From NCBI RefSeq assembly GCF_006716645.1, contig NZ_VFPL01000001.1:124001-188000 (forward strand): a stretch of DNA of 64,000 bases, written 5' to 3'. Origin of the DNA: Arcticibacter tournemirensis (GTDB lineage: Bacteria > Bacteroidota > Bacteroidia > Sphingobacteriales > Sphingobacteriaceae). The translations under genes and the position numbers were made by a program. Below the pieces are notes generated by a model, which did not search any database, was not told the DNA's origin, and saw nothing but the letters and a program-made list of their open reading frames with translations. Of this stretch, positions 36,007 through 62,421 are shown one piece after another; within the stretch, counting starts at the first letter, position 1; each line of letters starts with the position of its first letter.

Positions 36007-36023
36007 AAATAACCCCTAATCAA

Positions 36024-37772: not shown

Positions 37773-37799
37773 CTGGATTAACAAGCAAAGAAAAAGAAT

Positions 37800-38771: not shown

Positions 38772-38798
38772 TACCAGGCACTTAAACATTACATTCAA

Positions 38799-42511
<3,713 letters not shown>

Positions 42512-43200: not shown

Positions 43201-43215
43201 TTTCCCGGCTGCATT

Positions 43216-44070: not shown

Positions 44071-44143
44071 TTTAATCAATTAAACCACAAATATCCGCAG
44101 TATTCCCGCATTATAAAATCCGAAACTTGCTGTTTTCGTCCCA

Positions 44144-45290: not shown

Positions 45291-46745
45291 CTATTCCTCA
45301 ACTTCCCGTTTCTTCTTTTGAGAAGGACTAGCTTTACTACCGTACAAAGGATTCTGCTGTTGAGGTATTATTGCTCCGGTTTCTTTAACTTTTTTGAATA
45401 ATTCATTGAGTAGCTCATCCCGTTTAGCCGTATTAATAGTTGCGAGATTTCTTTTTTCCCCAATATCATCTTTCAGATTATATAATTCTATGGCATTATT
45501 CGTACTCGCCTTATCCTTTCCGCCGTCGAGCACCCATTCTTCATGGTAGAGCAGGAGCTTCCAATCACCTTTTCTGATTGTTGTAACAGGCCTCGTCCGA
45601 AAATCCTGATCCCGTGATCCAGGATTAGCATTATCCAGATATCCGGGGAAGTGCCAGAATATAGTTTGCCTTCTCAGGGCATTATTGCCCTTAAATAATT
45701 TCACCAAACTTTCGCCGTCCAGTATTTTATCCTGAGGTTTCTCAATGCCGCCAGCCTCCAGGAAAGTAGGAAAAAGATCGACATTAATTACTGGTGTGTT
45801 ATTAACAGTTGCAGGCTTTATTACCCCAGGCCACCGCGCAATAAAAGGAACACGGATTCCACCTTCATAGTACATCCCTTTAAACCCACGTAGCGGATTC
45901 TGGGGAGACTGCGGCAAACCGCCATTATCCGTAGTAAAAATCACCAGCGTATTACTTTCAATACCCAGGTCTTTTATTTTTTTAAGAAGAATACCCACGC
46001 CATCGTCCATCTGAGCGTTCATTGCAGCATACCTTACATTCCTCTGGTATTGACCAGACTTTCCCCTAAACTTAGCATACATATCATCATTAGCCTGTAT
46101 TGCCATATGCGTGGCATGATGCGAAACGCAGAGAAAAAATGGCCGGTCTTTGTTTTCTTCCATAAATTTGGCCGCACCATCGGTAATACGATAAATTCCC
46201 TTAGGATCTTTAGTCGATGAAAATTCCGCTTCGGATGGAGGGCTAAAAGACCCGTCAACATCAAAACCCTGGCTCTTAGGGATGACGTACGCTTTGGTTC
46301 CCAAATGCCACTTGCCGAACATCCCGGTCTTATACCCGCCGTCCCGCAGTGCTTCCGCCACTGTGTAAATCGCAGGATTCAGTTCTTCCGTGTTTGGTAC
46401 AGGCTTAAGACGCATTTTATTTTGAGGCCCTCTGTTCGTGCTTCCAACTGCATAGATCCCATGTCGGGGAGTATACTGCCCCGATATCAGGCAAGCCCTG
46501 CTCGGGGCGCAATTACCCGCAGCGGCGTAGGCATTGGTAAAAACCATCCCTTGTTTCGCCAATGCATCGATGTTGGGAGTTTGATAAAAATCGCTGCCGG
46601 TAAAACCGGCATCTTTCCAACCCATATCATCAATAAAGATCAATACGATATTAGGCTTTTGTGATTGTGCCTTGAGAAGATCTGCCTGTACCAGCAGGAA
46701 CAGAAACAGCAGAAGCTTATTCACAGTTGAAAGTATTCCTTTCAT
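45291..46745 (-). CDS. Type I sulfatase
   Basis: 484-residue secreted arylsulfatase-type enzyme. Signal peptide to about 25. Metal-binding PNIVLIFIDDMGWKD (two Asp) at about 31-44 and the formylglycine motif NCAPSRACLISGQ (C-x-P-S-R, Cys about 78), with GKWHLGTKAY and TDNGGLPQSPQNPLRG as further hallmarks. It needs an FGE-type or AtsB-type maturase, not present in this window. Lies in the carbohydrate region between the truncated hydrolase and the sensor on the same strand, suggesting removal of sulfate from the glycan imported by locus 2. Confidence 0.93.
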   Translation of the reverse strand: MKGILSTVNKLLLFLFLLVQADLLKAQSQKPNIVLIFIDDMGWKDAGFTGSDFYQTPNIDALAKQGMVFTNAYAAAGNCAPSRACLISGQYTPRHGIYAVGSTNRGPQNKMRLKPVPNTEELNPAIYTVAEALRDGGYKTGMFGKWHLGTKAYVIPKSQGFDVDGSFSPPSEAEFSSTKDPKGIYRITDGAAKFMEENKDRPFFLCVSHHATHMAIQANDDMYAKFRGKSGQYQRNVRYAAMNAQMDDGVGILLKKIKDLGIESNTLVIFTTDNGGLPQSPQNPLRGFKGMYYEGGIRVPFIARWPGVIKPATVNNTPVINVDLFPTFLEAGGIEKPQDKILDGESLVKLFKGNNALRRQTIFWHFPGYLDNANPGSRDQDFRTRPVTTIRKGDWKLLLYHEEWVLDGGKDKASTNNAIELYNLKDDIGEKRNLATINTAKRDELLNELFKKVKETGAIIPQQQNPLYGSKASPSQKKKREVEE

Positions 46746-47169
46746 GACGGTTTATGATTAATTAACATCACTAAATTATCCGTTGCCGGCGTTCTAAAAT
46801 CCGAGTAGGTTTCATCCTTTCACAAATACAATTCCCTTATTTGTTACTGCCTGTCGTCCTCCATTAACACAGCAAACGCATTTCCTTAAAACCATCAAGC
46901 GCCTGTCGGCTTACCTTGCTAATGTTAACCGTTGGACAATCCTACTTCTTCTAATCAAACATAAGAGTTTAATTAAAACGTTTTGAACGCAAAGACAAAA
47001 GTTACAATGTCTTCTACAATAGTTAACACGAATGCCCGGGTTGAGCAAAATCCTGTTTCTTTTTGTTTCAGAAAGCGTGGCCGGATATTCTTTCAGGTAA
47101 TTTTCTCTGGGTATTCAACGTGTACATATTGCGTCAGCTTCATCTTCCGAATGCCCCTCACGCAAATAA
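46746..47169. other. 424-base intergenic stretch upstream of the sulfatase
   Basis: No gene supported: the longest frame (46983-47225, 80 residues, +) is Cys- and Ser-rich, has no ribosome site and runs into the sensor's end. It holds the palindrome AAAACGTTTT at 46975-46984 about 230 bases upstream of the sulfatase ATG, beside a possible - strand promoter (TGTCTTTG next to it). Nothing else seen. Confidence 0.5.
46975..46984. promoter_or_regulatory. Palindrome, possible LacI-type operator
   Basis: AAAACGTTTT, perfect 10-base palindrome with central CG, the core of LacI/PurR-type operators, within TTAATTAAAACGTTTTG. It overlaps where a sulfatase transcript on the - strand would begin. No LacI-family gene is in the window. 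Confidence 0.3.
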
Positions 47170-50100
47170 TTATAACGGAGTTTTGGATGCATATTCTGAA
47201 GGGGTCATGTGATAGTACTTTTTAAATTCCCTACTGAAATACTTGCTACTGTCGTAACCAACAATATAGGAGATTTCGTACACGGTATACTTGTTTTCCC
47301 GCAACAACCCGGCAGCCTTTTTTAATCTCAGGGACTTAACAAATTCATTGGCAGACAATCCTGTAATAGCCTTTATTTTTTTAAACAACACAGGCTGGCT
47401 CATCGCTGCCATTTTTGATAACATAGCAATTCCAAATTCCGGATCATCCAGCTTTTCTTCTACCATCCGGATCATTTTGTTAATGAAAGCTTCATCCAGA
47501 GGATGAATGGAAAGATGCGTAGTTTCTGGCTGGAGATCTACCCGCGGAAGATCGGGCTTTATCTGCCTGTCGAACTGTTTCCACAAAGCTTCCCTTGCCT
47601 TAAGCAGGTTAAAGATATGCAACGAGAGGATCTCGACACTGAAAGGTTTCGTAAGGTAGATATCTGCACCCGTTTGCAATCCGCTTATCTGACTGGCAAC
47701 CGCATTCCTGGCAGTCAACAGGATCACGGGAATATGACTGGTCCGTTCATCAGATTTAACTCTCCTGCACAACTCGAGGCCGTCCATTTCAGGCATCATG
47801 ACGTCGCTTATAATCAGATCAGGAATCTGATCAGCTGCTGCCAGCCAGCCTTCAAGCCCGTTTGTGCTTTCAATGATCTTATACCTGCCCTGAAGCGCTT
47901 CTTTTATAAATCCCCTGATTGCCTTATTATCCTCCACGAGCAGCAATGTATGCTTTATACCTAAAGCCTGATAGCCTGCCGGAGATTCATTGGAGGCTTC
48001 CGCCATACCGGCATCAGCTTGCTCAGCAGGTTCAGCCTCTTCCTCAATTATTTGGCTTTCAGAAAAGTGTCCCCGACCTTTCTGCAGCCTTACAGTAAAA
48101 CAGGTATAGTTTGGTTCTGACTCACTGGTTACCGTAAGTTCGCCTCCATGAAGTTCAACAATACTCTTCGAAAGCGCTAAGCCAATGCCATATCCAGTGT
48201 TATTCTTCCCGTAGTCGTCCTCTTGGAAATAATTGTCAAACAACTTCCCCATATTCTCTCTGGAAATAGCCTTACCTTTATTGATAACGCTTATATATGC
48301 ACCGGATGATCTTTCTTCAATCCTGACTGAAATATAGCTACCGTCGGGGGTAAACTTATAAGCGTTGGACAGGAGGTTGTAAAACACCTTTTTTAACTGT
48401 TCGGGATCAAAATATAACTTTATATCATCTGAAGAACTTATGAAATCCGTTTGTATATGCCTGGAAGCCGATAATGAATGAAAAGAAGCGTAAATAGACT
48501 CAATAAAAGGCACAATATTCATGGATAAGATGCGCAGTGACAGATGACCTGTTTCAGCTTTACGGAAGTCCATCAGTTCATTCACCAACTGCAGCAGGCT
48601 CTCTGAATTATTTTTTATAGTTACTAATTGCTGATTATCCTCAGGTGCCTGTTTTTTACCTGTTATCAATTTATCCACTGGTCCTATTATCAGAGACAAG
48701 TGCGTTCTTATTTCATGAGAAATATTTGTGAAAAAATTCAATTTAAGCTGAGTGAGCTCCTGGTTCTTTTTGTAAAGCGCCCTCAAAAAGAAATATCTTG
48801 AAATCAAAAAGATTAACCCGGCTACCAACAACACATACAGTGTATAGGCCCACCATGTTTTCCAGAAAGGGGGAGAGATGACTATGTTTAAAGTTGCAGG
48901 TTTGCCCCAAATATTATCGTTATTAGATCCCTGCACAATAAACTGGTAATTACCGGGGGGGACATTCGAATAAACCGCCGAAGGAACACCTGTCGTATTC
49001 CATCCTTTATCATAGCCCTTCAGCAGGTATTTATAAGTGTTTTTTGAAGCCTTTATATAGTTGAGCGCGGCAAAGTCAATGGTAAAAAGATTTTGATCAT
49101 AACGGAGTTTGACTTCTCTTCCGGCGGTTTCAGATTTTAATCTTCTCTCTTCTTCATCCGTTAAGCCTTTATCGTCATTAAACTTCAGTTTTGTAATATA
49201 TACAGGTGGCGGTGCCTGGTTAATCTCTATATTCTCTGGAAAAAAACTGATAAAACCATTATAACCGCCGAAGAACATCGCTCCGCCTTTACTTTTATAA
49301 TAGGAGTTATGATTGAAAATGTTCCCCTCCAGTCCGTCTGCTTCCGTATAACTGGTAAAAGTATTATTGCTGATATTAAAGCGGCATAAGCCATTCCCAG
49401 TACTTATCCAGAGCGTATTTCTATCGTCCTGGAGTATCCCCACCACATTGTTGTCTGAAAGACCGTCAGCTTCACTGTAAGCATGTATTAATTTCCCCTG
49501 CTTACTGTATTTCCGGAGGCCATTATTGTTAACACCGACCCAAACATCTCCCCGGGCGTCTTCAAACAAGCAATTTGCTTTTACCGCCGATACATCACCC
49601 GATTGCCGACCGGCAACCGAAATTTTATCCTTGCCAATAATATACAGGCCACGTACAGTGCCAAGCCATATGTTGTTACCGGTAGTCTCCAGTATCGAAA
49701 GTATAGCTGCATTTTTTGTCATCCGGTTTACCGGTACTATGTTGACGGGAATAATATCCGTACCGCTTTTCTTGAAGGTTCTTATTCCGGCCGTCTCTGT
49801 GCCCACCCAAAACACACCACGGCTGTCCTCCAGCATGCACGTGATCTCAGAACCTAAAGTTTCATTGTTTTCATACATGAATCTTCTGAAGGTCTTTCTG
49901 TCTTTATTGAGCAGGTTGAGCCCGCCTCCATGTGTCCCTATCCAGATATTTTTGTCTTTGTCTTTATAAATAATTTTCACCAGGTTTGAGCCAAGGCTTA
50001 ACGTGTCGTCGGGATTGTGAGTATAGTATACCACCCGCCCAGTGGACATATCCAGGTAGTTAACACCGCCGCCCTCTGTTCCCACCCAAAGATTTGAATG

Positions 50101-51210
50101 ATCATCTTCAATAATTGAACTAATGACGTTATTATTGAGCCTGTTCCGTGGTGAGCGGTTATTATATAATTTAAATGCAGTTTTGTACGAAAAAAAGCTG
50201 TTCACTCCGCCAAAAAATGTTCCTATCCAGATTGTTCCCGTTCTATCCCTATAGAAACTATGGATAGAATTTTGGCTCAGGCTTAATCTGTCCCAGGGAT
50301 CATTCCTGTAGTTTCTGAACGTTTTAGTTTTGATATCCAGTATCGAAAGCCCATCCTGAGTACCAATCCATAGGTTTCCTTTAGTATCAGTGAGCAACTT
50401 TCTGATATTATTATTTATCAAACTTCCCTCATTAGCATTGTTATGAATAAAATGGATGAACGAGCCCGATAACCGGTTATAAAGATTCAGGCCACCCGCC
50501 GATGTTCCAACCCAGATATTCCCCTGAGTATCTTCAACGATACTTGTCACGTGATTACTGCTTAGCCCGCCTTTGCTCTCTTTATTTTGAAGCGTATCTA
50601 AAAGTACAAAACCGTTTTTACCATCTCTCAGCCTGATCACCCCATTGGAAGTACCAATCCAGAAAACGTTCTCCCGATCCTGATAGATGCACCGTACGAT
50701 CAGCTTCTTTTTAAACAAAGGAACAGTACTAACCTTGATTTTAGCGCCGGCGCGATTCAAGATCTTTACTGTAAAATCTGTACCAATCCAGATCTGGCCT
50801 CTCCGGTCCTGGTAAATACAATTTATAGATTTATTGACCTCATCAGAAGAGGTCCCGGTTGCGAGCGATATCCTGGTAAAACTATCACTGTCAGCATCGT
50901 ACCTGTTTAATCCCTGATGTGTCCCCGCCCATATTGTATTCTGTTTGTCGCACAGCAACGCAGTGATATAGTTATCTGAAATACTACCTTTCTTTAACGG
51001 CGAATTTTTATAAACAGTAAAGCGGTATGAATCGTACTTATTGAGGCCGTTACGCGTTCCGAACCATAAAAAGCCGTTGCTATCCTGGGTTATCGATAAT
51101 ACGGAATTTTGCGACAGGCCATTTTCAATACTGAGATGGCTGAATTCGATTTCCTGCGATATACCAGCCAAAGTAAAAAGCAATAAACAGTAACTGAAGA
51201 TGTACTTCAT
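47170..51210 (-). CDS. Hybrid two-component system sensor/regulator (HTCS)
   Basis: 1346 residues in one polypeptide. Signal peptide (ends near GISQ, about 18); about 14 two-component propeller repeats making two beta-propellers (about 20-660; GLSQNSVLSITQDSNGFLWF, repeated WIGT blades); Y_Y_Y domain (about 700-770); membrane helix (about 785-806, YTLYVLLVAGLIFLISRYFF); HisKA with SHEIRTHLSLI (about 832); HATPase (about 940-1050, GIGLALSKSIVELHGG); receiver with LLVEDNKAIRGF and SDVMMPEMDG (Asp about 1133); AraC output (about 1245-1346). It detects a released oligosaccharide in the periplasm and activates the divergent SusC-led locus. Confidence 0.95.
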   Translation of the reverse strand: MKYIFSYCLLLFTLAGISQEIEFSHLSIENGLSQNSVLSITQDSNGFLWFGTRNGLNKYDSYRFTVYKNSPLKKGSISDNYITALLCDKQNTIWAGTHQGLNRYDADSDSFTRISLATGTSSDEVNKSINCIYQDRRGQIWIGTDFTVKILNRAGAKIKVSTVPLFKKKLIVRCIYQDRENVFWIGTSNGVIRLRDGKNGFVLLDTLQNKESKGGLSSNHVTSIVEDTQGNIWVGTSAGGLNLYNRLSGSFIHFIHNNANEGSLINNNIRKLLTDTKGNLWIGTQDGLSILDIKTKTFRNYRNDPWDRLSLSQNSIHSFYRDRTGTIWIGTFFGGVNSFFSYKTAFKLYNNRSPRNRLNNNVISSIIEDDHSNLWVGTEGGGVNYLDMSTGRVVYYTHNPDDTLSLGSNLVKIIYKDKDKNIWIGTHGGGLNLLNKDRKTFRRFMYENNETLGSEITCMLEDSRGVFWVGTETAGIRTFKKSGTDIIPVNIVPVNRMTKNAAILSILETTGNNIWLGTVRGLYIIGKDKISVAGRQSGDVSAVKANCLFEDARGDVWVGVNNNGLRKYSKQGKLIHAYSEADGLSDNNVVGILQDDRNTLWISTGNGLCRFNISNNTFTSYTEADGLEGNIFNHNSYYKSKGGAMFFGGYNGFISFFPENIEINQAPPPVYITKLKFNDDKGLTDEEERRLKSETAGREVKLRYDQNLFTIDFAALNYIKASKNTYKYLLKGYDKGWNTTGVPSAVYSNVPPGNYQFIVQGSNNDNIWGKPATLNIVISPPFWKTWWAYTLYVLLVAGLIFLISRYFFLRALYKKNQELTQLKLNFFTNISHEIRTHLSLIIGPVDKLITGKKQAPEDNQQLVTIKNNSESLLQLVNELMDFRKAETGHLSLRILSMNIVPFIESIYASFHSLSASRHIQTDFISSSDDIKLYFDPEQLKKVFYNLLSNAYKFTPDGSYISVRIEERSSGAYISVINKGKAISRENMGKLFDNYFQEDDYGKNNTGYGIGLALSKSIVELHGGELTVTSESEPNYTCFTVRLQKGRGHFSESQIIEEEAEPAEQADAGMAEASNESPAGYQALGIKHTLLLVEDNKAIRGFIKEALQGRYKIIESTNGLEGWLAAADQIPDLIISDVMMPEMDGLELCRRVKSDERTSHIPVILLTARNAVASQISGLQTGADIYLTKPFSVEILSLHIFNLLKAREALWKQFDRQIKPDLPRVDLQPETTHLSIHPLDEAFINKMIRMVEEKLDDPEFGIAMLSKMAAMSQPVLFKKIKAITGLSANEFVKSLRLKKAAGLLRENKYTVYEISYIVGYDSSKYFSREFKKYYHMTPSEYASKTPL

Positions 51211-51544
51211 ATAGAGTGTTGAATACTGTTTTAACGATTAAAAGTAAATTAGCCAGAATCTGATCGCCCGGTAATCAAATTTATAAAAAAGATTATCATA
51301 ACCGAAAACTGCAATAGCGCCTTGCATCACCGTCGCTATTTTGCACGTTCTTTGTACTGTCTGCTATTTTTGATTTTCTGCCCTGAGAGGCATGAAAAAG
51401 ACCAAATTTTAAAAATTGCCCCCAAATGCTCGATTTTTTGACCCACGACTATAATGAACATTTTCCAGTTTTGTCTTGACCAAATGGAGTGCACGACGTG
51501 GTCTGCCTTCAGATAAATAAACTATTAAACTAATATTAAACGAG
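51211..51544. other. 334-base divergent regulatory region between HTCS and SusC 2
   Basis: No gene supported. Holds the SusC 2 promoter (51340-51372) and must also hold the HTCS promoter. TTTTGTCTTGACC at about 51471 lies 70 bases before the SusC ATG and may include an activator site. No ribosome site precedes the SusC start strongly (GAGTTGCGG). Confidence 0.5.
51340..51372 (+). promoter_or_regulatory. Promoter of the SusC 2 operon
   Basis: TTTG (51340-51343) and TATTTTTG (51365-51372), 21 bases apart, match the Bacteroidota -33 and -7 elements. About 172 bases upstream of the SusC ATG, leaving a long leader. Confidence 0.55.
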
Positions 51545-51550
51545 TTGCGG

Positions 51551-54500
51551 ATGACACTATTATTTTACCATGAAGCGGGTAAAGGAAAGGTCTTTTTTTT
51601 AAAACCCTTTCTTGCCTTGTCTGCCTTCCTGTTCTTTTCATTAAACGCCTTCTCTCAAAAGAATATCTCAGGATATGTAAGAGATACAGAAGGACCAATA
51701 CCAGGCATTAATGTAACCGTTAAAGGAAAGGCAGGCGGCACCCAAACCAATGCCGGAGGCAGGTTTAAGATCAACGCCGGTTTAAACGACATAATTGTTA
51801 TTTCAGGTGTGGGATACGAGTCTGTAGAGCTAAGGGTCGATTCAAGAAATGAGTATACCATAACTTTGAGAAATAAGGTAAACGACCTGAGTGAAGTGGT
51901 CGTCATTGGTTATGGCACAGTTTCAAAGCGCGATCTAACCGGAGCTGTCGAAAAGGCTGATATAAAAGAAATGCAAAAAGCGCCAGTGCTGGGTTTCGAT
52001 CAGAGCCTGGCCGGAAGGGTCGCTGGCGTAAACGTAGTTTCGGCCGAAGGCCGCCCGGGTGCCGAAGCTGACATTGTAATCAGAGGAGCCAATTCTCTAA
52101 CCCAAAATAACAACCCCCTATATGTTATAGACGGTTTTCCCCTAGAAACTTCTATGAGCAATGCCATAGATCCTAAAGACATAGAGTCTATTGAGATCCT
52201 CAAAGATGCCTCAGCTACCGCGATTTACGGTGCCAGAGGAGCCAATGGGGTCATTATGATCACAACGAAGGCAGGTAAAGGGACGAAGCCGACCATAGCT
52301 TACGACGGTTTCTTTGGAACACAATCAGTAACCAGGAAGATGGATCTAATGGATGGTTACGAGTTTGTAAAACTTCAGAGCGAAGTTTTCAATGAAGAGA
52401 CTATGAACAAGTATTACTTTTTCGATGGACGGACGTTAGAAGACTATCGCGGGACCGGTATTGATTTTCAGGATCAGTTGTTCCGTACGGCGCCCATGCA
52501 AAAACATGGTTTGTCGTTAATGTCCGGAGCCGGCACCACTAAGTACAATCTATCTCTTTCGTATACCGGGCAGGATGGAGTTGTAATAAATACCGGATTC
52601 GACCGGCTGCAGGGGCGTTTTTCACTAGACCAGGAATATAGGAAATGGTTAAAAGTGGGCACCAAACTTTCCTATTCGCACACAAAATACAGCGGAACCT
52701 TTCTTTCTGAGGGGACAAGTACTTACAGTTTAATGCAAAATACATGGTCTTACAGGCCTGTTACCGGCTCAAGTGATTTTGATCTGGAAAATGATCTCTT
52801 TGATCCGATACTTAATTCTAACGACAACTACCGCATCAATCCGATCATCGCAGTTAACAACGAGCTGAACGACAATAACTACACTTTTTTCACTGGTAAT
52901 GGATATGTGGAGATCGATCTCATGCGGAATTTAAAATTCAGAAGCACCGTGGGCTACTCTAAAAACAGTACAAGGAACGATGTTTTTAATAATTCAAAAA
53001 GCCGCAGCGGAAATCCTCTTACCAGCTCGCTTGGCGTAAATGGAGCACTCGGATTTAACGAGAGGTCTAACTGGCTTACAGAAAACACCCTTACTTATAC
53101 CAGAAAGAAAGGCAGTCATAATCTTGATGTATTGGGTGGCTTATCTATGCAGCACGAAAATTATCTGTACAACTATACAAGAATGCAACAGGTTCCATAC
53201 GAAACCCTGGGCATGAGCGGATTAGACCAGGGTAGTTTTTATTCAATGAGCACCTATCGGAATGAATGGTCGTTGATGTCATTCTACGGACGACTGAATT
53301 ACAACTATAAGTGGAGGTATTACCTTACCGCTACCATGCGCGGAGATGGATCTTCTAAATTTTCCGACCGTAACCGCTGGGGCTATTTCCCTTCAGCTTC
53401 ATTAATGTGGCGTTTTACAGGTGAGAACTTCATGAAGAAGTTAACGTTCATTAATGACGGAAAGCTACGTGCCAGCTGGGGTATGACCGGAAATAACAGA
53501 GTCGGCGAATACGCCTCGTTAGCGCAGATAACTGCCGAACGGCCTGATAAATATTACTTTGGAGGAGTGCCGGTTATCGGAACAGCAAAAACGACCATGG
53601 GCAATCCCGACCTTAAATGGGAAACAACCATACAAAGCAATATAGGTCTGGATCTTACGATGTTTAATAAACGCGTAAACCTGACCGTGGATGCTTATCA
53701 AAAACGAACCAAAGACTTACTGTTGAATGCTCAGCTCCCCGGTTCGTCTGGTTATATGGCTTCCTTCAAAAACATCGGTGAAGTCGAAAACAAGGGCCTT
53801 GAATTTACCCTGAACACGCGAAACATTAGTAAACCAGCTTTTTCGTGGCAAACTAACTTCAATATATCTTTCAATAAAAACAAGGTCCTGGGGCTTACCG
53901 AAAATCAGCAAACGCTGGTAAGCACAGTTTTCTGGGAATTCAGTCGCGACACCCAACCAGCATACATTGCCCGGATTGGTGAGCCAATGGGTCTGATGTT
54001 CGGTTATGTCTATGAAGGAACCTACAAACCCGATGAGTTTACCCAAACAGCGGGCGATTTCTACCTGAGGGATAATGTTGCTTACCCCGGAACCAGGAGA
54101 AATGTGAGGCCTGGCGACATGAAGTACAGCGACATTAATGATGACGGCATTATCGACGGAAACGACCGCACCATCATTGGCAACGGCGTTCCGGTGCATA
54201 CGGGCGGTATTACCAATACGTTCACCTATAAGAATTTCGATTTAAGCGTATTCTTTCAATGGTCGTACGGCAATGATATTCTCAATGCAAATAAATACAT
54301 GTTCGAGCGCTATTTTATGCAGAATTCTAACATGTACGCTTCTTATAGTAACAGGTGGACGCCTGAAAACCCCTACAGTGACATTCCACGGGTGAACGAG
54401 GGGTCGGGAAGTTACTATTCGTCTTATGGCATAGAAGATGGTTCATATTTGCGGCTCAAAACCCTTTCACTCGGGTATGCCATCCCACAGAAAAGCCTCG

Positions 54501-54685
54501 CAAAATCCTTTCTGCAAAATTTACGGCTATACCTGTCGGCGCAGAACCTCTGGACATTAACCAACTACTCTGGCATGGACCCTGAAGTGTCTACCCGCAA
54601 TAGCGCTTTAACACCCGGTTTTGATTTTTCAGCCTATCCCCGCGCCGCAACAATTACAATAGGACTTAATATGAGCTTAAAATAA
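51551..54685 (+). CDS. SusC-like TonB-dependent receptor without STN domain
   Basis: About 1044 residues if started at ATG 51551 (MTLLFYHEAG); a start two codons earlier at 51545 (TTG-type) is also open. Signal helix about 22-40 (FLALSAFLFFSLNAFSQ), CarboxypepD_reg domain about 40-115 (ISGYVRDTEGPIPGINVTVK), plug with VIGYGTVSKRDLTGAVE and the SusC signature DASATAIYGARGANGVIMITT, and barrel to LNMSLK. Without STN domain it cannot use the FecR route, fitting control by the divergent HTCS. First gene of locus 2. Confidence 0.93.
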   Translation: MTLLFYHEAGKGKVFFLKPFLALSAFLFFSLNAFSQKNISGYVRDTEGPIPGINVTVKGKAGGTQTNAGGRFKINAGLNDIIVISGVGYESVELRVDSRNEYTITLRNKVNDLSEVVVIGYGTVSKRDLTGAVEKADIKEMQKAPVLGFDQSLAGRVAGVNVVSAEGRPGAEADIVIRGANSLTQNNNPLYVIDGFPLETSMSNAIDPKDIESIEILKDASATAIYGARGANGVIMITTKAGKGTKPTIAYDGFFGTQSVTRKMDLMDGYEFVKLQSEVFNEETMNKYYFFDGRTLEDYRGTGIDFQDQLFRTAPMQKHGLSLMSGAGTTKYNLSLSYTGQDGVVINTGFDRLQGRFSLDQEYRKWLKVGTKLSYSHTKYSGTFLSEGTSTYSLMQNTWSYRPVTGSSDFDLENDLFDPILNSNDNYRINPIIAVNNELNDNNYTFFTGNGYVEIDLMRNLKFRSTVGYSKNSTRNDVFNNSKSRSGNPLTSSLGVNGALGFNERSNWLTENTLTYTRKKGSHNLDVLGGLSMQHENYLYNYTRMQQVPYETLGMSGLDQGSFYSMSTYRNEWSLMSFYGRLNYNYKWRYYLTATMRGDGSSKFSDRNRWGYFPSASLMWRFTGENFMKKLTFINDGKLRASWGMTGNNRVGEYASLAQITAERPDKYYFGGVPVIGTAKTTMGNPDLKWETTIQSNIGLDLTMFNKRVNLTVDAYQKRTKDLLLNAQLPGSSGYMASFKNIGEVENKGLEFTLNTRNISKPAFSWQTNFNISFNKNKVLGLTENQQTLVSTVFWEFSRDTQPAYIARIGEPMGLMFGYVYEGTYKPDEFTQTAGDFYLRDNVAYPGTRRNVRPGDMKYSDINDDGIIDGNDRTIIGNGVPVHTGGITNTFTYKNFDLSVFFQWSYGNDILNANKYMFERYFMQNSNMYASYSNRWTPENPYSDIPRVNEGSGSYYSSYGIEDGSYLRLKTLSLGYAIPQKSLAKSFLQNLRLYLSAQNLWTLTNYSGMDPEVSTRNSALTPGFDFSAYPRAATITIGLNMSLK

Positions 54686-54695
54686 AAGAAACAAG

Positions 54696-56327
54696 ATGAG
54701 AAACAGATTTTTATTCGTTTACGTTTTTTGCCTGTCAACTTGTTTAACCGCATGCGATAAGTTCCTCGAAACAACACCCAAAGATTTTCTGTCCCCCGAA
54801 AACTATTACAATACAGAAGATGATATCGTAAATGCTCTCGGAGCAGTATACGTTACTTTAGGCAGTAATTACACGTACGGCCGGTATATGGTGATCGATG
54901 GCGCCATGGACGATCTTGGGTACTGGAACCAGACAGAAGTTAACCTGATCGACAGGCTTTCGGGCTGGAATTACACAGCAGCCCAGCCTCAGATCGCGAT
55001 GATGTGGCAGCGACTTTATGAAGGTATCGAAAGGGCGAATGTCCTGCTTGAAAATATTGACGATGCGGAAATGAGTGATGCCGCAAGTGAGAGGTACCGG
55101 GGCGAGGCTATTTTCTTAAGGGCCTATTACCATTATTTATTGGCCGACCTCTGGGGAGACGTACCTATGCGCCTTACTTCCAATCAGGCTGTAACCGATG
55201 TGAATATTGAACCGACACCAGCCCTGGCCGTTATTGAACACTCAGCAGCAGACATCGAAGAGGTGATCGGAAAAGGGATGCTGCAAGCAGCTGCCGCCTA
55301 TCCGCATAGCAGCAGGGTTACGATAACAGTAGCGCAAGGCATCCTGGCCAGAATATACCTTAAAATGGCCGGTGAGCCTTTTAAGATTCAGGGAATGTAC
55401 GAAAAAGCACTCCATTGGGCAAGCCTGGTAAAATCAAGCGGACAACATTCCCTGAATCCTGATTATGACAGGATATTTATCAACCATTCACAGGATTTAT
55501 ATGATACGCAATACCGGGAAAGTATGTGGGAAGCTGAGTTTAACGGCAATTCGACTACAGATCCCGGCAAATCTGACAAATACAGCTGGGTGGGCGTTAC
55601 CAACGGTATTATTTGTTACGATCCTTCCGACGCACTGGGTTATTCATATGGATATATCCGCACAAGGTTAAAGCTGTGGGACCTGTTCGAAGCCGCTGAC
55701 AAGCGTAAGAGCCGGAGCATTGCTTCGTATAGGTATAACACTACCGACAACACGAAATACAATGAAAGACTTACGACCTTTAGCTCTGTAGCCGAACGGT
55801 GCTCAGCAAAGTGGCGAAGAGAAGAAGAGACATTAAAACCTAAAGACAAAAACTTCAATGCTACCAATTTTCCTATACTTCGCTATTCAGACGTATTGCT
55901 GATGATTGCAGAAGCTGAAAATGAATTAAACGGACCAACAGCCACGGCATTAAACGCAATCAACGAAGTAAGGCAAAGAGCAGGTGTAAAGAGCTACAGC
56001 ACAGCGTCCGGGCCCGATGTAATTACTATTTCGGGGAAAGATGATCTTCGCGAAGCAGTGAGAGACGAACGAGCAAGAGAGCTGTGCTGGGAGGGGATCA
56101 GGCGCCATGACCTGATACGTTGGGGCATTTTTGAAGAGGCTATGCAGCAAGCGGCTGCCGAGCCATTCATTGCAGCGAATGTTGGTAACGGGCGCACCGC
56201 GAACGCGTCTCAACGCACCATAATGGCAGCAATAGCGGGTAAAATGTCTGAAAAATACCGGCTATACCCCGTTCCCCAAAAAGAATTAAATCTGAATAAT
56301 AAAATGAGACAAAACAGATTCTGGTAG
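54696..56327 (+). CDS. RagB/SusD family lipoprotein
   Basis: 543 residues; lipoprotein Cys in CLTACDKFLETTPKD (about residue 20). SusD fold with WQRLYEGIERANVLLENID, GEAIFLRAYYHYLLADLWGD and AVRDERARELCWEGIRRHDLIRWG at the C-terminus. Glycan-binding lid of the SusC pore encoded 10 bases upstream; followed after 5 bases by the DUF5017 gene. Confidence 0.95.
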   Translation: MRNRFLFVYVFCLSTCLTACDKFLETTPKDFLSPENYYNTEDDIVNALGAVYVTLGSNYTYGRYMVIDGAMDDLGYWNQTEVNLIDRLSGWNYTAAQPQIAMMWQRLYEGIERANVLLENIDDAEMSDAASERYRGEAIFLRAYYHYLLADLWGDVPMRLTSNQAVTDVNIEPTPALAVIEHSAADIEEVIGKGMLQAAAAYPHSSRVTITVAQGILARIYLKMAGEPFKIQGMYEKALHWASLVKSSGQHSLNPDYDRIFINHSQDLYDTQYRESMWEAEFNGNSTTDPGKSDKYSWVGVTNGIICYDPSDALGYSYGYIRTRLKLWDLFEAADKRKSRSIASYRYNTTDNTKYNERLTTFSSVAERCSAKWRREEETLKPKDKNFNATNFPILRYSDVLLMIAEAENELNGPTATALNAINEVRQRAGVKSYSTASGPDVITISGKDDLREAVRDERARELCWEGIRRHDLIRWGIFEEAMQQAAAEPFIAANVGNGRTANASQRTIMAAIAGKMSEKYRLYPVPQKELNLNNKMRQNRFW

Positions 56328-56332
56328 TTACA

Positions 56333-57310
56333 ATGAAAAAGAGCATTTTAATACTAATATTTGCCGGGATCCTCGCCTGTGTATCTTGCGAGGACAACAG
56401 GCTAGATGTCCCCCAGTTTAGCGTTACCGTAGATACCGGGAACGCTGTAGGGTTCGATGATGCCGGAACACCAGTGTTTAAAAAGGGCAGCAGCGTTAAG
56501 TTCATGTTCGATGGTCAGGCCGATATGATCACATTCTACTCGGGAGAACCGGGAATGATGTATCAGCATAAAGACCGCACAAAGCTTCAGGGATTTCCCT
56601 TTATGCAATTTAATACTCAAATGGAAAATGGGAATATGCCTCCCGGATTCCTATCGGTATTGCTTTCTTCCGATTTTGCAGGGTTTACAAAGAACAGGGA
56701 AACTGATGTCCGGAATATCTCAGACGCCACCTGGACTGACGTCACAGAGCAATGTAATATTCCCCTCACACAGACCACTCAATTATCTCCACGCATAGAC
56801 TTGTCTGCTTATGCCGGCAAACCCCTATACGTAGCTTTTAGATATAACAGGCCTGCAAATACGGATTTCCCAAGATACCAGATCAAGAACTTCAGAATCC
56901 AAAATGAGGCAGATGGAACAGCATACGAAATAATGACGACCAGAAACGCCGGATGGACTGCTTTTGATTTCAATGCACCTGCCAATACCGACCCGTACGC
57001 TTCTACCGGTGGCGGAACGGCAAACAGGATATGGGATTTACGAAATGCCACATCGGATGACCGGATCGCCATAGGTTATAACAGCCAGATTAACAATAAC
57101 GACTGGGCAATCACGGCTGCAATCGACCTTACATCGGTTTCACCGGATCTCGGGCAAGGCATCAAGGCCTATAACGACGACCGATTAAAAGAATATCGCT
57201 ATATATTCAATACCGCCGGAACCTTTACGGTTAGTTTCCTTACTACCAATTCAAGATATTCAGAAACAAAAACCTCTTTAAAAGAAGTGACCATCACAGT
57301 CGAAGAATAA
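56333..57310 (+). CDS. DUF5017 lipoprotein
   Basis: 325 residues with lipoprotein signal and Cys in ACVSCEDNRLDVP (about residue 20). Domain typical of DUF5017: VKFMFDGQADMITFYSGEPG, ADGTAYEIMTTRNAGWTAFD, then a beta-rich C-terminus (FTVSFLTTNSRYSETKTSLK). Position after SusD suggests a surface glycan-binding protein of the locus. Function is inferred from context. Confidence 0.85.
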   Translation: MKKSILILIFAGILACVSCEDNRLDVPQFSVTVDTGNAVGFDDAGTPVFKKGSSVKFMFDGQADMITFYSGEPGMMYQHKDRTKLQGFPFMQFNTQMENGNMPPGFLSVLLSSDFAGFTKNRETDVRNISDATWTDVTEQCNIPLTQTTQLSPRIDLSAYAGKPLYVAFRYNRPANTDFPRYQIKNFRIQNEADGTAYEIMTTRNAGWTAFDFNAPANTDPYASTGGGTANRIWDLRNATSDDRIAIGYNSQINNNDWAITAAIDLTSVSPDLGQGIKAYNDDRLKEYRYIFNTAGTFTVSFLTTNSRYSETKTSLKEVTITVEE

Positions 57311-57344
57311 ACATCACAGCTTAAATAACATCAAAATTTTTGAA

Positions 57345-58583
57345 ATGAAATACTATATTCCAGCGTTTTTAATACTTGCCTTCTTTACAATAGCATTTAC
57401 CGGCGACCCATCGGAAGAACGTTTTATACAGGAGAACTTCCATTTTTCGGGCAAGCAGTTAAGTTCTTTGTTGAATGAGGCCAACAAGGCAGATACATTA
57501 TATCCCAGAACCCTTGACGAAAACGGGAAAGTTAAGCTGACCAATAAATACGAGTGGACATCTGGTTTTTTTGCGGGTACTTTATGGTATGCTTTTGAAG
57601 GATCAAAAGATTTAAATTTAAAGAAGGAAGCAATCAAATGGACAGAGAAACTCGAGCCACTCAAAAACTTCACGAGGCATCATGATCTGGGCTTCATGAT
57701 GTATTGCAGCTATGGTAATGCCTACCGGTTAACCGGAAATAAAAAATATAAAGACATTCTGATACAGGCAGCGACTTCGTTAAGCAGCAGGTACAGTGCG
57801 AAAACAGGCAGCATAAAATCATGGGATGTATTTGGTTCATGGCGTGGCAAAACCCGTTACAACTTCCCGGTCATTATTGATAATATGATGAACCTTGAAC
57901 TGCTTTTTTTCGCATCGAAAGAAACGGGAAATCCATACTTCAAAAATATTGCAGTGAGACATGCAGAGAATGCAATGAAAAACCAGGTACGACCAGATTA
58001 CAGCTGTTACCACGTGGTTTGTTACGACCCCGAAACCGGAAACGTTCTTTCGAGAGAGACAGCACAGGGATATGCCGATAATTCTACCTGGTCGAGAGGG
58101 CAGGCCTGGGGAATATACGGGTTTACCATGACCTACCGGGAAACCGGTGATAAAAGATTTCTTCAAACTGCTGTTAAAATGGCGGATTATTATCTTAATC
58201 ACGCAAATCTGCCCTCTGATAAAGTCCCTTACTGGGACTTCAACGCAAATCAGGAAGGATATACACCTTCCGTACGATCGCGTGCCCCAGAAACTCCGGT
58301 AAACTATCGCGACGTTTCGGCTGCAGCCATAACGGCTTCGGCGTTGTTTGAATTAAGTACGCTTAAAGGAGTCGACGGCAATAAATACCGCGACGCAGCT
58401 GTAACGATCCTGCATTCTTTAGGCAGCCCTGCTTATAAAGCAAAAACAGGCGAAAATGGTGGCTTCATTTTAAAACATAGCGTAGGAAGCATTGCCCATC
58501 ACTCAGAAATTGATGTTCCATTGATTTATGCCGACTACTATTACCTTGAAGCCTTAAACAGGTATAATAAAATGATCAACTAA
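57345..58583 (+). CDS. GH88 unsaturated glucuronyl hydrolase
   Basis: 412-residue (alpha/alpha)6-barrel enzyme. Signal peptide about 1-18. Catalytic Asp in RHHDLGFMMYCSYGNAYRL (about 114) and the second acidic region YADNSTWSRGQAWGIYGF (about 241-256), typical of family 88. These hydrolases remove the 4,5-unsaturated uronate left by a polysaccharide lyase, releasing it as an open keto sugar. The next gene is such a lyase candidate, making a functional pair. GH105 is the main alternative, but RGQAW plus HDLGF favours GH88. Confidence 0.9.
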   Translation: MKYYIPAFLILAFFTIAFTGDPSEERFIQENFHFSGKQLSSLLNEANKADTLYPRTLDENGKVKLTNKYEWTSGFFAGTLWYAFEGSKDLNLKKEAIKWTEKLEPLKNFTRHHDLGFMMYCSYGNAYRLTGNKKYKDILIQAATSLSSRYSAKTGSIKSWDVFGSWRGKTRYNFPVIIDNMMNLELLFFASKETGNPYFKNIAVRHAENAMKNQVRPDYSCYHVVCYDPETGNVLSRETAQGYADNSTWSRGQAWGIYGFTMTYRETGDKRFLQTAVKMADYYLNHANLPSDKVPYWDFNANQEGYTPSVRSRAPETPVNYRDVSAAAITASALFELSTLKGVDGNKYRDAAVTILHSLGSPAYKAKTGENGGFILKHSVGSIAHHSEIDVPLIYADYYYLEALNRYNKMIN

Positions 58584-58594
58584 AGTCTCAGATA

Positions 58595-60487
58595 ATGTTA
58601 AACCGATATTATTCAGAATTCAGCCTGACGTCAGTTGCGATCTGTTTATTTTTCGTGCTTATCTCTCAGGGGATATACGCACAATCACTTCCGGAAACTG
58701 TTTCAAAAATCACAGAGCACCCTCGCTTATTACTTTTAAAAGGGGAAGAAAATGCCATCAGGCAGGAGCTTCAGAAAGATACTGTGCGGGGACGTGTAAA
58801 CAGAGCAATCCTAACCGAGTGCGATCTTATCCTAACGCAGCCCCCTGTCGAACGGAAGATGATCGGCAGGCGGCTGCTCCAGGCTTCAAGGGAAAGTTTA
58901 AGGCGCATCTTTTTTCTGTCGTATGCATGGCGGATCACCGGAAAAGAACAATATTTCCAAAAATGCGAAAAGGAATTACTGGCCGCTGCTGCTTTTGAGG
59001 ACTGGAATCCCACCCATTTCCTGGACGTTGCCGAAATGACCCTGGCATTATCAATCGGTTACGATTGGCTGTATAATGGTCTCTCTGCTAATTCACGTGA
59101 CATCATCAGTAAGGCAATCATACAAAAGGGGCTGAATCCGTCTTTTGACCCCAAATACAACGGCTGGCTACGAGGATCGAATAACTGGAACCAGGTATGC
59201 AATGCCGGAATTACTTTCGGCGCGCTGGCAGTTTACGAACAGCAACCCGAATTATCTGGAAAACTAATAAACAGGGCAATAGAGAGTGTGCTTATTCCTA
59301 TGAAAAAATATGCTCCCGACGGTAACTACATGGAAGGATACAGCTACTGGGCCTATGGCACCTCCTTCAATGTTTTCCTCATCAGCGCACTTGAGAAAAT
59401 TTTTAAATCCGACTTTGGACTGAGCAAACAACCGGGCTTTCTGAAAACAGCATCTTTCTACGAACAGCTCACCGGAACGTCGGATATGCCGTTCAATTAT
59501 GGCGACGGAGGCGGACCAGAAGGTCTGCAGCCAGCCATGTTCTGGTTTGCAGAAAAGCTGCAGGATCCATCGATACTTTACATTGAAAAAGAGAACCTGT
59601 TATCGTCTCGGTTTCATGTAAAATCAAACCGCTTACTGCCTGCGGTAATGTTATGGGGCCGGGCCATTCCGGTTGACAAAATAACGGTGCCCACTACTCT
59701 GTTCTGGGCTGGTGTAGGGGAAAACGAAGTCGCCATTCTACGGACCGGCTGGGATAAGAACGGCATTTATGTAGGTTTTAAGGCCGGCACCCCATCACTC
59801 AGCCACGCCCATATGGACATAGGTTCTTTTGTTATGGATGCCGAAGGGGTAAGATGGTCTGCTGATTTAGGTATGCAGCAGTATAATTCACTTGAATCTG
59901 CAGGTTTAGATATTTGGAATATGGCACAGAACTCACAACGCTGGCAGGTCTTCCGGTATTCAAATCCCTCGCATAGCACCTTGACCGTTAACGGGCACCA
60001 CCAGAGTGTTAAGGGCAGGGCAAAAATCATCGCCAGGTCTTCTGATCCGCAGCATACAAGAGCCGTTATAGACATGTCGGAGATTTATAACGAAGATCTC
60101 GTGACGGCAAAAAGGGGAGTTGCGATTACTGGCAGAAAGTATGTGAACGTTAGAGATGAAATAGAAACCGGCGACAGCGAATGCACCATAAGATGGGCAA
60201 TGCTTACACCAGCGAAAGTTAAATCGATCGAAGGCGCTCAAATCCACCTGGTCAATAAGGGAAAACACCTCAAAATGTACATCGCCGGCATAGAAGGCGC
60301 TGTGTTTAAAACCTGGAGTACCGACCCCCCGAATAATTACGATGCACCCAATCCCGGCACCACCCTGGTTGGTTTCGAGCTGAAGGTACCCGCGCATACA
60401 AAAAAGTCCTTCAATGTTATTTTGGCACCGGGAAATGAGAAAATGGAGGTTAAAAATATTAACTTAACGGCTTTAAACGAATGGTAA
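58595..60487 (+). CDS. Heparinase II/III family polysaccharide lyase-like protein
   Basis: 630 residues. Signal peptide about 1-29 (ends GIYAQ). N-terminal alpha-barrel domain (about 40-330) with SNNWNQVCNAGITFGALAVY (about 196-215), YMEGYSYWAYGTSFNVF and FNYGDGGGPEGLQPAMFW; C-terminal heparinase II/III beta domain (about 370-600) beginning LRTGWDKNGIYVGF with SHAHMDIGSFVMDAEGVRW (His about 404-406). Known relatives cleave uronate-containing polysaccharides by elimination. The exact lyase family and substrate are not determined. Overlaps the next gene by 7 bases. Confidence 0.88.
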   Translation: MLNRYYSEFSLTSVAICLFFVLISQGIYAQSLPETVSKITEHPRLLLLKGEENAIRQELQKDTVRGRVNRAILTECDLILTQPPVERKMIGRRLLQASRESLRRIFFLSYAWRITGKEQYFQKCEKELLAAAAFEDWNPTHFLDVAEMTLALSIGYDWLYNGLSANSRDIISKAIIQKGLNPSFDPKYNGWLRGSNNWNQVCNAGITFGALAVYEQQPELSGKLINRAIESVLIPMKKYAPDGNYMEGYSYWAYGTSFNVFLISALEKIFKSDFGLSKQPGFLKTASFYEQLTGTSDMPFNYGDGGGPEGLQPAMFWFAEKLQDPSILYIEKENLLSSRFHVKSNRLLPAVMLWGRAIPVDKITVPTTLFWAGVGENEVAILRTGWDKNGIYVGFKAGTPSLSHAHMDIGSFVMDAEGVRWSADLGMQQYNSLESAGLDIWNMAQNSQRWQVFRYSNPSHSTLTVNGHHQSVKGRAKIIARSSDPQHTRAVIDMSEIYNEDLVTAKRGVAITGRKYVNVRDEIETGDSECTIRWAMLTPAKVKSIEGAQIHLVNKGKHLKMYIAGIEGAVFKTWSTDPPNNYDAPNPGTTLVGFELKVPAHTKKSFNVILAPGNEKMEVKNINLTALNEW

Positions 60488-62421
60488 AGCAAATAAAGTA
60501 TTATACAATCCTCCTGTGGATATTTATACCCGCAATCGTAAAATCGCAAATAAAACTTCCCAGGCTTATCAGCAACGGAATGGTATTGCAACGCGATCAA
60601 AAAGTAAATATATGGGGATGGGCCTCACCCGGAGAAAAGATCACAATCAGCTTTAATAATCATATAGTACATACAACCTGTTCTGAGAATAAAAAATGGC
60701 TGGTTACTCTACCTCCGATGAAAGCAGGAGGTCCTTTTGATATGATTATTAAGGGCAAGAACAGCGTTGTGGTCAAAGACATCCTGTTAGGTGATGTATG
60801 GCTTTGTTCAGGCCAATCCAATATGAATTTCGAGCTATACAAAGCCCGCGAGCTGTACACTAAGGAGATCGAAGCTGCTGGAAATAACCAGATCAGGGAA
60901 TTTTCGGTAAAACTGCCTTCTAGTTTTGCAAAACGGGATGATGTAGAAGGAACGTGGAAACCAGCTAATCCGGGCAACGTTCTGAATTTTAGTGCAGTGG
61001 GCTATTTCTTTGCATTGAGCCTTCATAAAAAACATAAAGTTCCCGTCGGAATCATTCATTCCAGTTATTCGGGAACACCTGCAGAGGCCTGGATAAGCGA
61101 AGAAGGGCTGAAAAACTTTCCTCATTACCTTGAAAAAGCTGCCACATTTAAGGATACAGCATACGCCAATGCTGCCGTTTCGAAAGATAAACAAACCACC
61201 AGTGAATGGTTTGCAGCAATAGAACAGCATGATAAGGGACTAAAAGGCAAGGAAGCGTTGTGGGCGCAACCCTTTGCCGATACTTCAGGCTGGAGACCAA
61301 TCGTCTTTCCCGGCTACTGGGAAGACCAGGGTATTGATGGTATCGATGGCGCAGTATGGGTCAAAAAAACAGTAAATGTGCCGGCGTCAATGATCGGGCA
61401 GCCGGTTTATCTGGAGCTCGGATTAATAGACGACATAGATATCACATACGTCAACGGGCAAAAAGTAGGTTCTAAAGACAATAAGTACCTGGCACGTCGT
61501 TATGAAATACCATCCCATTTGCTAAAGGAAGGAAGAAACACCCTCACCATCAGGATCATTGATAAAGAGGGCCGGGGAGGTATTGTTCCCGGCAAGAAAT
61601 ACAGATTTACAAATGGAAAAACAAGCATTGATCTTTCCGGAACATGGTACTATAAAACAGGTTATGCATTACCGGAACTTCCGGTATCCCGTTTCGTACG
61701 GATGGATTATATGCCAACGATCATGTACCATAGTAGGATAGAACCGATCATTGGATACACGATAAAAGGAGTAGCCTGGTACCAGGGTGAAGGAAATTCA
61801 GGTAAAGCCATTGAATACAGAAGCCTGCTGCCAGCGTTGATCGCCGACTGGCGAAAGAGATGGGGACAAGGCGATTTTCCATTCCTTATCGTTCAGCTGG
61901 CAAATTACATGGACCCTCCGCAGGTACCCCAGGAAAGCAGGTGGGCAATGCTGAGAGAATCGCAGGCAAAAGTAGCAGACTCGATACCAAACTGCGGACT
62001 GGCAGTTGCTATCGACATTGGCGATGCAAACGACCTTCACCCTTTAAACAAGAAAGAGGTTGGAAACCGGCTCGCCCTTATCGCGCAAAAAGTGGCTTAC
62101 CGCGACCTGAAAGCCGTGTATCCGGTGCCCCAATACGAATCTGCCACTTTCAATGGGAGCAAGGTTATTATCTCTTTCAAACATACAGGCAGCGGTTTGA
62201 CAGCAAAAAACGGGGCGCTGAAGCACTTTGCTATAGCCGGCGAAGATCGTAAATTCCGTTGGGCCGAAGCAGAGATCAAAAATGGAAAGGTAGTAGTTTG
62301 GAGTAAAGACATTGCAAAACCAGTAGCCGTAAGATATGCATGGGCCGACAACCCCGCCGGTTGTAACCTGTATACTAAAGAGGGTTTACCGGCAGCACCT
62401 TTCAGAACAGACAAATGGTGA
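60481..62421 (+). CDS. Sialate O-acetylesterase-like carbohydrate esterase
   Basis: 646 residues, SGNH-type esterase (SASA/CE20-like). Signal peptide about 1-22. Catalytic Ser in LCSGQSNMNFEL (about 111-115), GVAWYQGEGNSG (about 434) and the Asp/His pair in ANDLHPLNKKE (about 518). A beta-sandwich insert of about 235-385 (GAVWVKKTVNVPASMI, YVNGQKVGS) sits within the esterase, resembling a galactose-binding-like domain. It removes O-acetyl groups from the glycan so the lyase and GH88 can act. Last gene of the operon. Confidence 0.9.
   Translation: MVKQIKYYTILLWIFIPAIVKSQIKLPRLISNGMVLQRDQKVNIWGWASPGEKITISFNNHIVHTTCSENKKWLVTLPPMKAGGPFDMIIKGKNSVVVKDILLGDVWLCSGQSNMNFELYKARELYTKEIEAAGNNQIREFSVKLPSSFAKRDDVEGTWKPANPGNVLNFSAVGYFFALSLHKKHKVPVGIIHSSYSGTPAEAWISEEGLKNFPHYLEKAATFKDTAYANAAVSKDKQTTSEWFAAIEQHDKGLKGKEALWAQPFADTSGWRPIVFPGYWEDQGIDGIDGAVWVKKTVNVPASMIGQPVYLELGLIDDIDITYVNGQKVGSKDNKYLARRYEIPSHLLKEGRNTLTIRIIDKEGRGGIVPGKKYRFTNGKTSIDLSGTWYYKTGYALPELPVSRFVRMDYMPTIMYHSRIEPIIGYTIKGVAWYQGEGNSGKAIEYRSLLPALIADWRKRWGQGDFPFLIVQLANYMDPPQVPQESRWAMLRESQAKVADSIPNCGLAVAIDIGDANDLHPLNKKEVGNRLALIAQKVAYRDLKAVYPVPQYESATFNGSKVIISFKHTGSGLTAKNGALKHFAIAGEDRKFRWAEAEIKNGKVVVWSKDIAKPVAVRYAWADNPAGCNLYTKEGLPAAPFRTDKW

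Follow-up and report, generated by a model that had tools for sequence, protein, structure and literature searches.

A stretch of 64,000 nt from Arcticibacter tournemirensis (Sphingobacteriaceae; assembly GCF_006716645.1, contig NZ_VFPL01000001.1, positions 124,001-188,000), referred to here as the window, contains a complete polysaccharide utilization locus (PUL) built around a polysaccharide lyase of family PL35. Genes were identified by a Pfam scan (E <= 0.001), with NCBIfam models and by phmmer comparison with the Protein Data Bank (PDB); the whole genome comprises 5.66 Mb in two contigs. Six forward-strand genes, coding for SusC, SusD, a DUF5017 protein, a GH88 hydrolase, the PL35 lyase and a CE20 esterase, occupy positions 51545-62421 and likely form a single operon, because the gaps between them do not exceed 34 bp and there is one overlap. 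Together with a divergent hybrid two-component system (HTCS) regulator and a sulfatase, these genes had been named in an earlier note on this DNA, in which the esterase was called SASA-type, and all of them are complete open reading frames (Table 1). A cassette of PL35, GH88, CE20 and GH53 genes recurs in other genomes; this is the new result of the analysis, and the substrate thereby becomes testable in named strains.

Table 1. Features of the PL35 locus, with positions in the window.
Feature	Position	Strand	Evidence
SusC/RagA TonB-dependent importer	51545-54685	+	TIGR04056 (NCBIfam) 912 bits; start uncertain, TTG listed
SusD-like surface lipoprotein	54696-56327	+	PF07980 140 bits; lipobox pattern
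DUF5017 lipoprotein, presumed surface glycan-binding protein	56333-57310	+	PF16409 129 bits; Cys in lipobox pattern
GH88 unsaturated glucuronyl hydrolase	57345-58583	+	Pfam 40 bits; 3wiw 356 bits
PL35 lyase	58595-60487	+	Hepar_II_III_C 60 bits; 8khv 740 bits
CE20 esterase with inserted ancillary domain	60481-62421	+	SASA 61 bits with GH2N-like insert; 9h4u 612 bits
HTCS hybrid two-component sensor/regulator	47170-51210	-	Reg_prop, Y_Y_Y, HisKA, HATPase_c, Response_reg, HTH_18 (Pfam)
Divergent intergenic region, presumed HTCS-controlled promoter	51211-51544		Position alone
S1 sulfatase, Cys type (Cys79), membership uncertain	45291-46745	-	PF00884 188 bits
Truncated clan GH-A-like glycosidase, probable remnant	44144-45250	-	GH51-like PDB matches

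The lyase was assigned to PL35 by full-length sequence similarity: matches to GAGase II (8khv; E 2e-221), GAGase VII (8khw; 563 bits, E 1e-167) and a PL35 chondroitinase (9o3q; 264 bits, E 4e-77) each spanned more than 540 residues, and identity to GAGase II was 55% across 580 aligned residues. Structures of PL12, PL15 and PL21 gave weak matches of 17-36 bits. The heparinases of textbook heparin/heparan PULs belong to PL12, PL13, PL15 or PL21, and a heparin locus was ruled out because the lyase is a PL35 with weak matches to PL12, PL15 and PL21, in agreement with the earlier note, which had set this locus apart from the textbook one. The Pfam scan of the lyase listed Hepar_II_III_C alone and not DUF4962, an N-terminal module reported for most PL35s and missing from GAGase VI (PMC11262172). 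Identical residues were found at 22 of the 23 active-site and metal positions named in PMC12088678; the catalytic Tyr251, His404 and Asn197 and the metal-site His406, Asp408, Asp424 and His460 are kept. Alginate is an unlikely substrate, with Asn196 at the position of the histidine that GAGase III needs for alginate (PMC12088678).

The GH88 protein, likewise classified by similarity, shares 53% identity with 3wiw across 337 residues, compared with scores of 190-199 bits against Bacillus and streptococcal enzymes (1vd5, 199 bits). The motifs HDxGF and IDNxM, whose Asp residues are presumably catalytic, are present in the alignment. Family classification, which the earlier note had proposed as a check, thus gave PL35 and GH88, and the lyase/GH88 pair that it described is supported, as one for a 4-linked uronate. 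Judged from its sequence, the SASA-type gene encodes a CE20 esterase with an ancillary domain, scoring 612 bits against Fl8CE20_II (9h4u) and 611 bits against PpCE20_II (9ega); its SASA domain is split by the GH2N-like insert, and the Ser/Asp/His motifs are kept (GQSNM at 111, DLHP at 518). CE20 is known for deacetylation, which suits the removal of substituents that had been ascribed to this enzyme. Full-length similarity, the ancillary insert and the Ser/Asp/His motifs are shared with those two xylan esterases (PMC12313940), from which the window enzyme differs in keeping two of five loop residues of the xylan cluster (CE20 cluster II), in having Leu in place of Arg313 (by eye) and in lying within a lyase/GH88 operon. 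Xylan is not indicated as a substrate by these nearest CE20s, as the loop residues differ. PL35, GH88 and GH53 do not occur in PMC12313940.

Of 296 genomes searched in the phylum, 8 matched the PL35 lyase at E <= 1e-60, as did 58 of 399 in the family, the window genome being included in both counts. The GTDB species collection gave at least 565 relatives, of which the best 80 were taken (loci are denoted by L numbers). The gene order SusC-SusD-DUF5017-GH88-PL35 was found in 12 further distinct genomes besides that of the window. Cassettes of a first type, A, were those of Pedobacter chitinilyticus, P. ureilyticus, P. helvus, P. nanyangensis, Sphingobacterium chuzhouense and Flavobacteriaceae PS02338; type B cassettes were those of Desertivirga xinjiangensis, Niastella sp. 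OAS944, Terrimonas ferruginea, a Chitinophagales metagenome-assembled genome (L103; two extra genes between DUF5017 and GH88) and two other genomes. Within the genus, PL35 was found in two of five other genomes examined (49% and 40%; L070 and L081), in neither case within this operon.

A CE20 gene is present in seven of the 12 related cassettes, and in ten of them the operon is continued by a GH53 gene, the best clue to the glycan, which lies outside the window and had been missed by the earlier note. P. ureilyticus and S. chuzhouense are among the strains whose cassette includes GH53. Four of the GH53 proteins were scanned with Pfam (253-287 bits) and the remainder assigned by 70-100% identity to those; their nearest solved relatives are endo-beta-1,4-galactanases. 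A lipobox was recognized by pattern in eight of the ten and by eye in the other two, which suggests that the GH53s of the relatives are likely surface enzymes. Elsewhere, the lipobox pattern matches the PL35 of L108, and a Cys is present in the leader of the L096 GH88; the pattern found no match in the lyase, GH88 or CE20 of the window. The L096 cassette has no GH53 and contains a GH2. L104 combines a PL35 of the same clade and a CE20 with another SusC/D, has no GH88, and carries a protein nearest to beta-agarases, which we take to be a GH50; a 42% homologue of it is found in L158. These agarase-like proteins, the GH2 of L096 and a GH2 beta-galactosidase operon in the window (32605-42511) are further pointers to galactose. 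No paper linking PL35 to GH53 was found at the level of titles and abstracts, and a literature search on galactan/glucuronate lyases returned nothing beyond one sulfatase review. Two further families accompany these cassettes: a protein of about 545 residues (50-74% identical) in four of them (L096:13922-15559, L207:3904-5538, L208:260-1900 and L210:11049-12695), with a type IX secretion system (T9SS) sorting tail in the L096 member and no member in the window, and, in type A cassettes, a secreted protein of 180 residues without Pfam match after the GH53 (L043:4938-5483 and counterparts).

The PL35 tree was built by a quick method, with the Shimodaira-Hasegawa-like approximate likelihood ratio test (SH-aLRT) as support and without bootstrap. 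GAGases II and VII were the characterised PL35s placed in it; GAGases I, III-VI and VIII and the Bacteroides caccae and Roseihalotalea enzymes were left out. The window lyase fell in a clade of 16 rows (SH-aLRT 100) with GAGases II and VII outside, GAGase VII forming a long branch of unsure placement. This separation fits the less-studied glycan proposed by the earlier note. Thirteen of the best 80 GTDB loci belong to the clade and 67 do not. With presence of a neighbour defined as a best blastp match at E <= 1e-8, GH53 was found beside PL35 in 8/13 clade loci versus 0/67 others, CE20 in 7/13 versus 0/67, DUF5017 in 10/13 versus 0/67 and GH88 in 10/13 versus 9/67. Fisher values for this enrichment treat kin as independent and are hence too small, and absences partly reflect contig ends, since 20 of the 80 loci have shortened flanks. 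Two clade members, L100 and L102, have the lyase without the cassette, L100 lying on a short contig.

The importer of the window is of type A, with identities to that type of 70-74% for SusC, 71-73% for SusD and 63-69% for DUF5017, versus 46-49%, 38-39% and 28-34%, respectively, to type B. The HTCS shows the reverse, 47-50% over 1224-1366 residues to type B sensors (n=3) versus 25-29% over 837-1280 residues to those of type A (n=5); the propeller alone gave the same trend, the type A propellers being cut off at locus ends. GH88 and PL35 are about equally similar to both types, and the PL35 tree joins the window to type A (SH-aLRT 96). As read from these identities, the locus combines a type A importer with a type B sensor, importer and sensor types being exchanged around a constant catalytic pair. 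Because the window pairs a type B sensor with a type A importer, the two types of cassette probably handle one glycan class.

The sulfatase can be counted as part of the locus with less certainty than the other genes, because it is found on the side of the regulator, 424 bp behind the HTCS, and outside the operon. No similar sulfatase (blastp E <= 1e-8) was found in any of the 80 PL35 loci within the available flanks. Since over 10 kb separate the window sulfatase from the lyase, the stretches beyond the sensor were also read, and none was found in the eight related cassettes covered (16 kb each, one 4.5 kb up to a contig end). Among the genomes compared the sulfatase is peculiar to the window genome and stands beside a truncated gene, so that the sulfated substrate proposed by the earlier note is not upheld. 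Homologues of the enzyme (52-72% identical where complete) have other surroundings, which in some cases include several sulfatases; these surroundings were viewed in 12 stretches, one of which was chosen for the glycosidase and holds no sulfatase homologue. The nearest solved relative is 9fo1, an S1_16 enzyme. Neither S1_16 marker (AMOR numbering) is kept, Trp79 aligning with Ala99 and His149 with Pro (by eye, in a gapped region), and a 4S-Gal/GalNAc sulfatase of this subfamily was rejected on that ground (PMC11760155, PMC10154612); the marker Trp is present in just 37% of S1_16 (PMC10154612), so that the enzyme may still belong to the subfamily. With a Cys-type active site, and an anaerobic sulfatase-maturating enzyme (anSME, 518 bits) in the genome, the protein can in principle be matured. 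The strain may yet make use of it, but the substrate of the operon cannot be deduced from it. The genome gave 16 sulfatase matches, two under the cut-off and two being pieces of seemingly one broken gene; these adjacent pieces lie outside the window (C1:2111597-2112569), one with two TGA stops.

The glycosidase-like gene 40 bp behind the sulfatase matches a homologue of 487 aa at 69% identity over residues 41-359 of the latter, the remainder being missing. It is probably a remnant, because the end of the barrel is absent, though both presumed catalytic residues, Glu183 and Glu330, are left. A structure model of the homologue was set aside (mean predicted local distance difference test score, pLDDT, 54). 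L200:8616-16803 holds a 28% relative of this glycosidase, in which the N-terminal part matches GH79 under the cut-off; the relative lies among three sulfatase-like genes, one of them 53% identical to that of the window, which hints at a sulfatase/glycosidase pairing. Beside the truncated gene in the window, 42574-44079 codes for a DNA-alkylation repair pair, of which one member is an AlkB-type 2-oxoglutarate-Fe(II) oxygenase and the other a fusion of an AraC-type regulator with an O6-methylguanine methyltransferase. A second SusC/SusD operon (32605-42511) lies 1.6 kb past the truncated glycosidase, its link to the PL35 locus being proximity; it also codes for a BT_3987-like/F5-F8C protein and for a GH2 beta-galactosidase that bears a ricin-type lectin domain. 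On the other side, a PurT-like gene (62484-63659) comes next after the esterase. Promoter-like matches in the divergent intergenic region did not exceed chance, and promoter-like and terminator-like sites were no commoner than in shuffled sequences; repeats relevant to the locus were not found, the four-copy repeat being within the HTCS propeller; and GC content ranged from 0.41 to 0.48 in 2-kb steps, a sharp island not being seen.

The reading that we favour, tentatively and with slightly less than even confidence, is that the operon serves the breakdown of a glycan that is O-acetylated and contains both 4-linked glucuronate and beta-galactose; that the substrate is an acetylated uronate glycan of some kind is likely. 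The enzymatic steps follow from the family assignments, in an order and in cell compartments that we infer. The HTCS would sense a periplasmic oligosaccharide and turn on the operon. At the cell surface the glycan would be bound by SusD and the DUF5017 protein and then imported through SusC. A surface role is presumed for the DUF5017 protein, whose structure model (pLDDT 72.5) had no PDB fold match at E <= 0.001, and no paper pairing DUF5017 with polysaccharide utilization was found among the top literature matches. CE20 would remove O-acetyl groups, and PL35 would cleave by beta-elimination beside 4-linked glucuronate, leaving 4,5-unsaturated ends, with Tyr251 and His404 acting as base and acid, Asn197 as neutraliser and the four metal ligands holding their site. 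GH88 would release these ends as 5-keto-4-deoxyuronate for the Kdu pathway, through a KduI-family isomerase whose candidate (111 bits) lies elsewhere in the genome. Galactose is placed in the substrate because the same operon in relatives carries the surface-looking GH53 endo-beta-1,4-galactanase; lacking this endo-enzyme, the window strain would use pre-cut or short chains as a scavenger. The sulfatase and the truncated glycosidase would be a strain-specific addition. A stronger version is doubtful and rather unlikely: that the window clade represents a new PL35 specificity, an O-acetylated glucuronogalactan-type lyase working with surface GH53, GH88 and CE20 and not a glycosaminoglycan (GAG) lyase, and that the window strain is a scavenger without the surface galactanase and with mixed importer and sensor types.

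Several observations weigh against the galactose- and glucuronate-containing substrate. The galactose is deduced from relatives, and no GH53 or remnant was found in the window (tblastn E <= 1), nor any GH53 in the whole genome, where controls matched. Near kinship links five of the 12 cassettes (GH53 83-100% identical), and in L103 a GH16 nearest to beta-1,3-glucanases takes the place of GH53. Lipoproteins were called by lipobox pattern or by eye, not with a signal-peptide program. KduI and IolB belong to one Pfam family. The published CE20s come from xylan, xyloglucan, pectin and N-glycan loci, none with uronate polymers in the available part of PMC12313940, and every PL35 in the available parts of PMC11262172, PMC12088678, PMC12269599 and PMC13027841 cuts at least one GAG. 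One of the characterised enzymes left out of the tree could, moreover, lie inside the window clade.

GAGs are thus a serious rival, which we judge somewhat improbable: PL35 would cut hyaluronan, chondroitin or heparan sulfate, GH88 would clear the disaccharides, the sulfatase would desulfate, and CE20 would be incidental. All PL35 catalytic residues are kept, most characterised PL35s stand outside the tree, and the nearest solved GH88, 3wiw, is what we take to be a heparin enzyme of Pedobacter heparinus. Against a GAG locus, the window clade does not include GAGases II and VII, GH53 and CE20 were specific to it among the best 80 loci, no similar sulfatase was found near these loci within the available flanks, and the genome has a single other Hepar_II_III_C match; we know of no part played by GH53 or CE20 in GAG breakdown. 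A PL8 search found no match in the genome, but control genomes gave none either. The earlier note would have taken a lyase from a family of known, different specificity as speaking against its reading, and this is half the case: PL35 is known from GAGs, and to our knowledge no member of the window clade has been assayed.

Comparison with known systems bears on the same question. GAGases I-VIII were assayed on GAGs and alginate, I-V being broad and VI-VIII weak (PMC11262172). The window lyase is of the same family as GAGase II (Spirosoma fluviale, 8KHV) and GAGase VII (Bacteroides intestinalis, 8KHW) and shares their catalytic triad and metal ligands; it differs from them in its separate, supported clade and in its surroundings of GH88, DUF5017 and CE20, with GH53 in relatives. 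In B. caccae, PL35 and GH88 act on chondroitin, and its PUL25 (PL35-GH88-GH109-dehydratase; PMC12269599) resembles the window in this tandem and is itself without sulfatase, but has GH109, a GH154-type dehydratase and M60-like proteins and, as far as described there, no CE20; GH109 and GH154 were not found among the window operon genes in the Pfam scan. The Roseihalotalea indica GAG-PUL (PL8, PL35, PL38 and CE19), raised during growth on GAG, likewise holds SusC/D, PL35 and an esterase in a single locus, with two additional lyases and an esterase of another family (PMC13027841). The earlier note had drawn its contrast from the SASA-type esterase; the locus does differ, but the argument that GAG loci are without esterase is weakened by this example. 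The B. thetaiotaomicron PUL for chondroitin sulfate, dermatan sulfate and hyaluronan (PMC6994673) shares SusC/D, HTCS, lyase, GH88 and sulfatase functions, and differs in having PL8, PL29 and PL33 lyases and S1_27 and S1_15 sulfatases, CE20 not being described in the available part of that paper.

Two other explanations seem very unlikely. In the form given by the earlier note, one polymer would be both sulfated and acetylated and desulfated by the sulfatase of the locus. The sulfatase does adjoin the sensor, and its Cys-type site and the anSME maturase would permit activity, but it is a separate transcription unit beside a truncated gene, has close homologues in unrelated contexts and is missing from the PL35 neighbourhoods and from beyond the sensors in related cassettes, as described above. 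An acetylated glucuronate polymer without galactose, for which bacterial glucuronan and glucuronomannan are candidates, would require the GH53 of relatives to act on a side branch; this too has little probability. Although 4-linked glucuronate and O-acetyl are the minimum that the window operon needs, and the window lacks GH53 and keeps the remainder of the set, GH53 is the commoner of the two added neighbours and accompanied solely the window PL35 clade in the best 80 loci.

A heparinase II/III-like lyase readily receives an annotation as a heparin or GAG enzyme, and if the acetylated galactose- and glucuronate-containing glycan favoured here is the true substrate, such annotations would need correcting. 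A lyase, a GH88 hydrolase and a deacetylase would then be in hand for an uncharacterised polysaccharide. Named strains of Pedobacter and Sphingobacterium carry the recurrent cassette, which comes with two types of importer and two of sensor, and the substrate could be looked for in these strains by induction.

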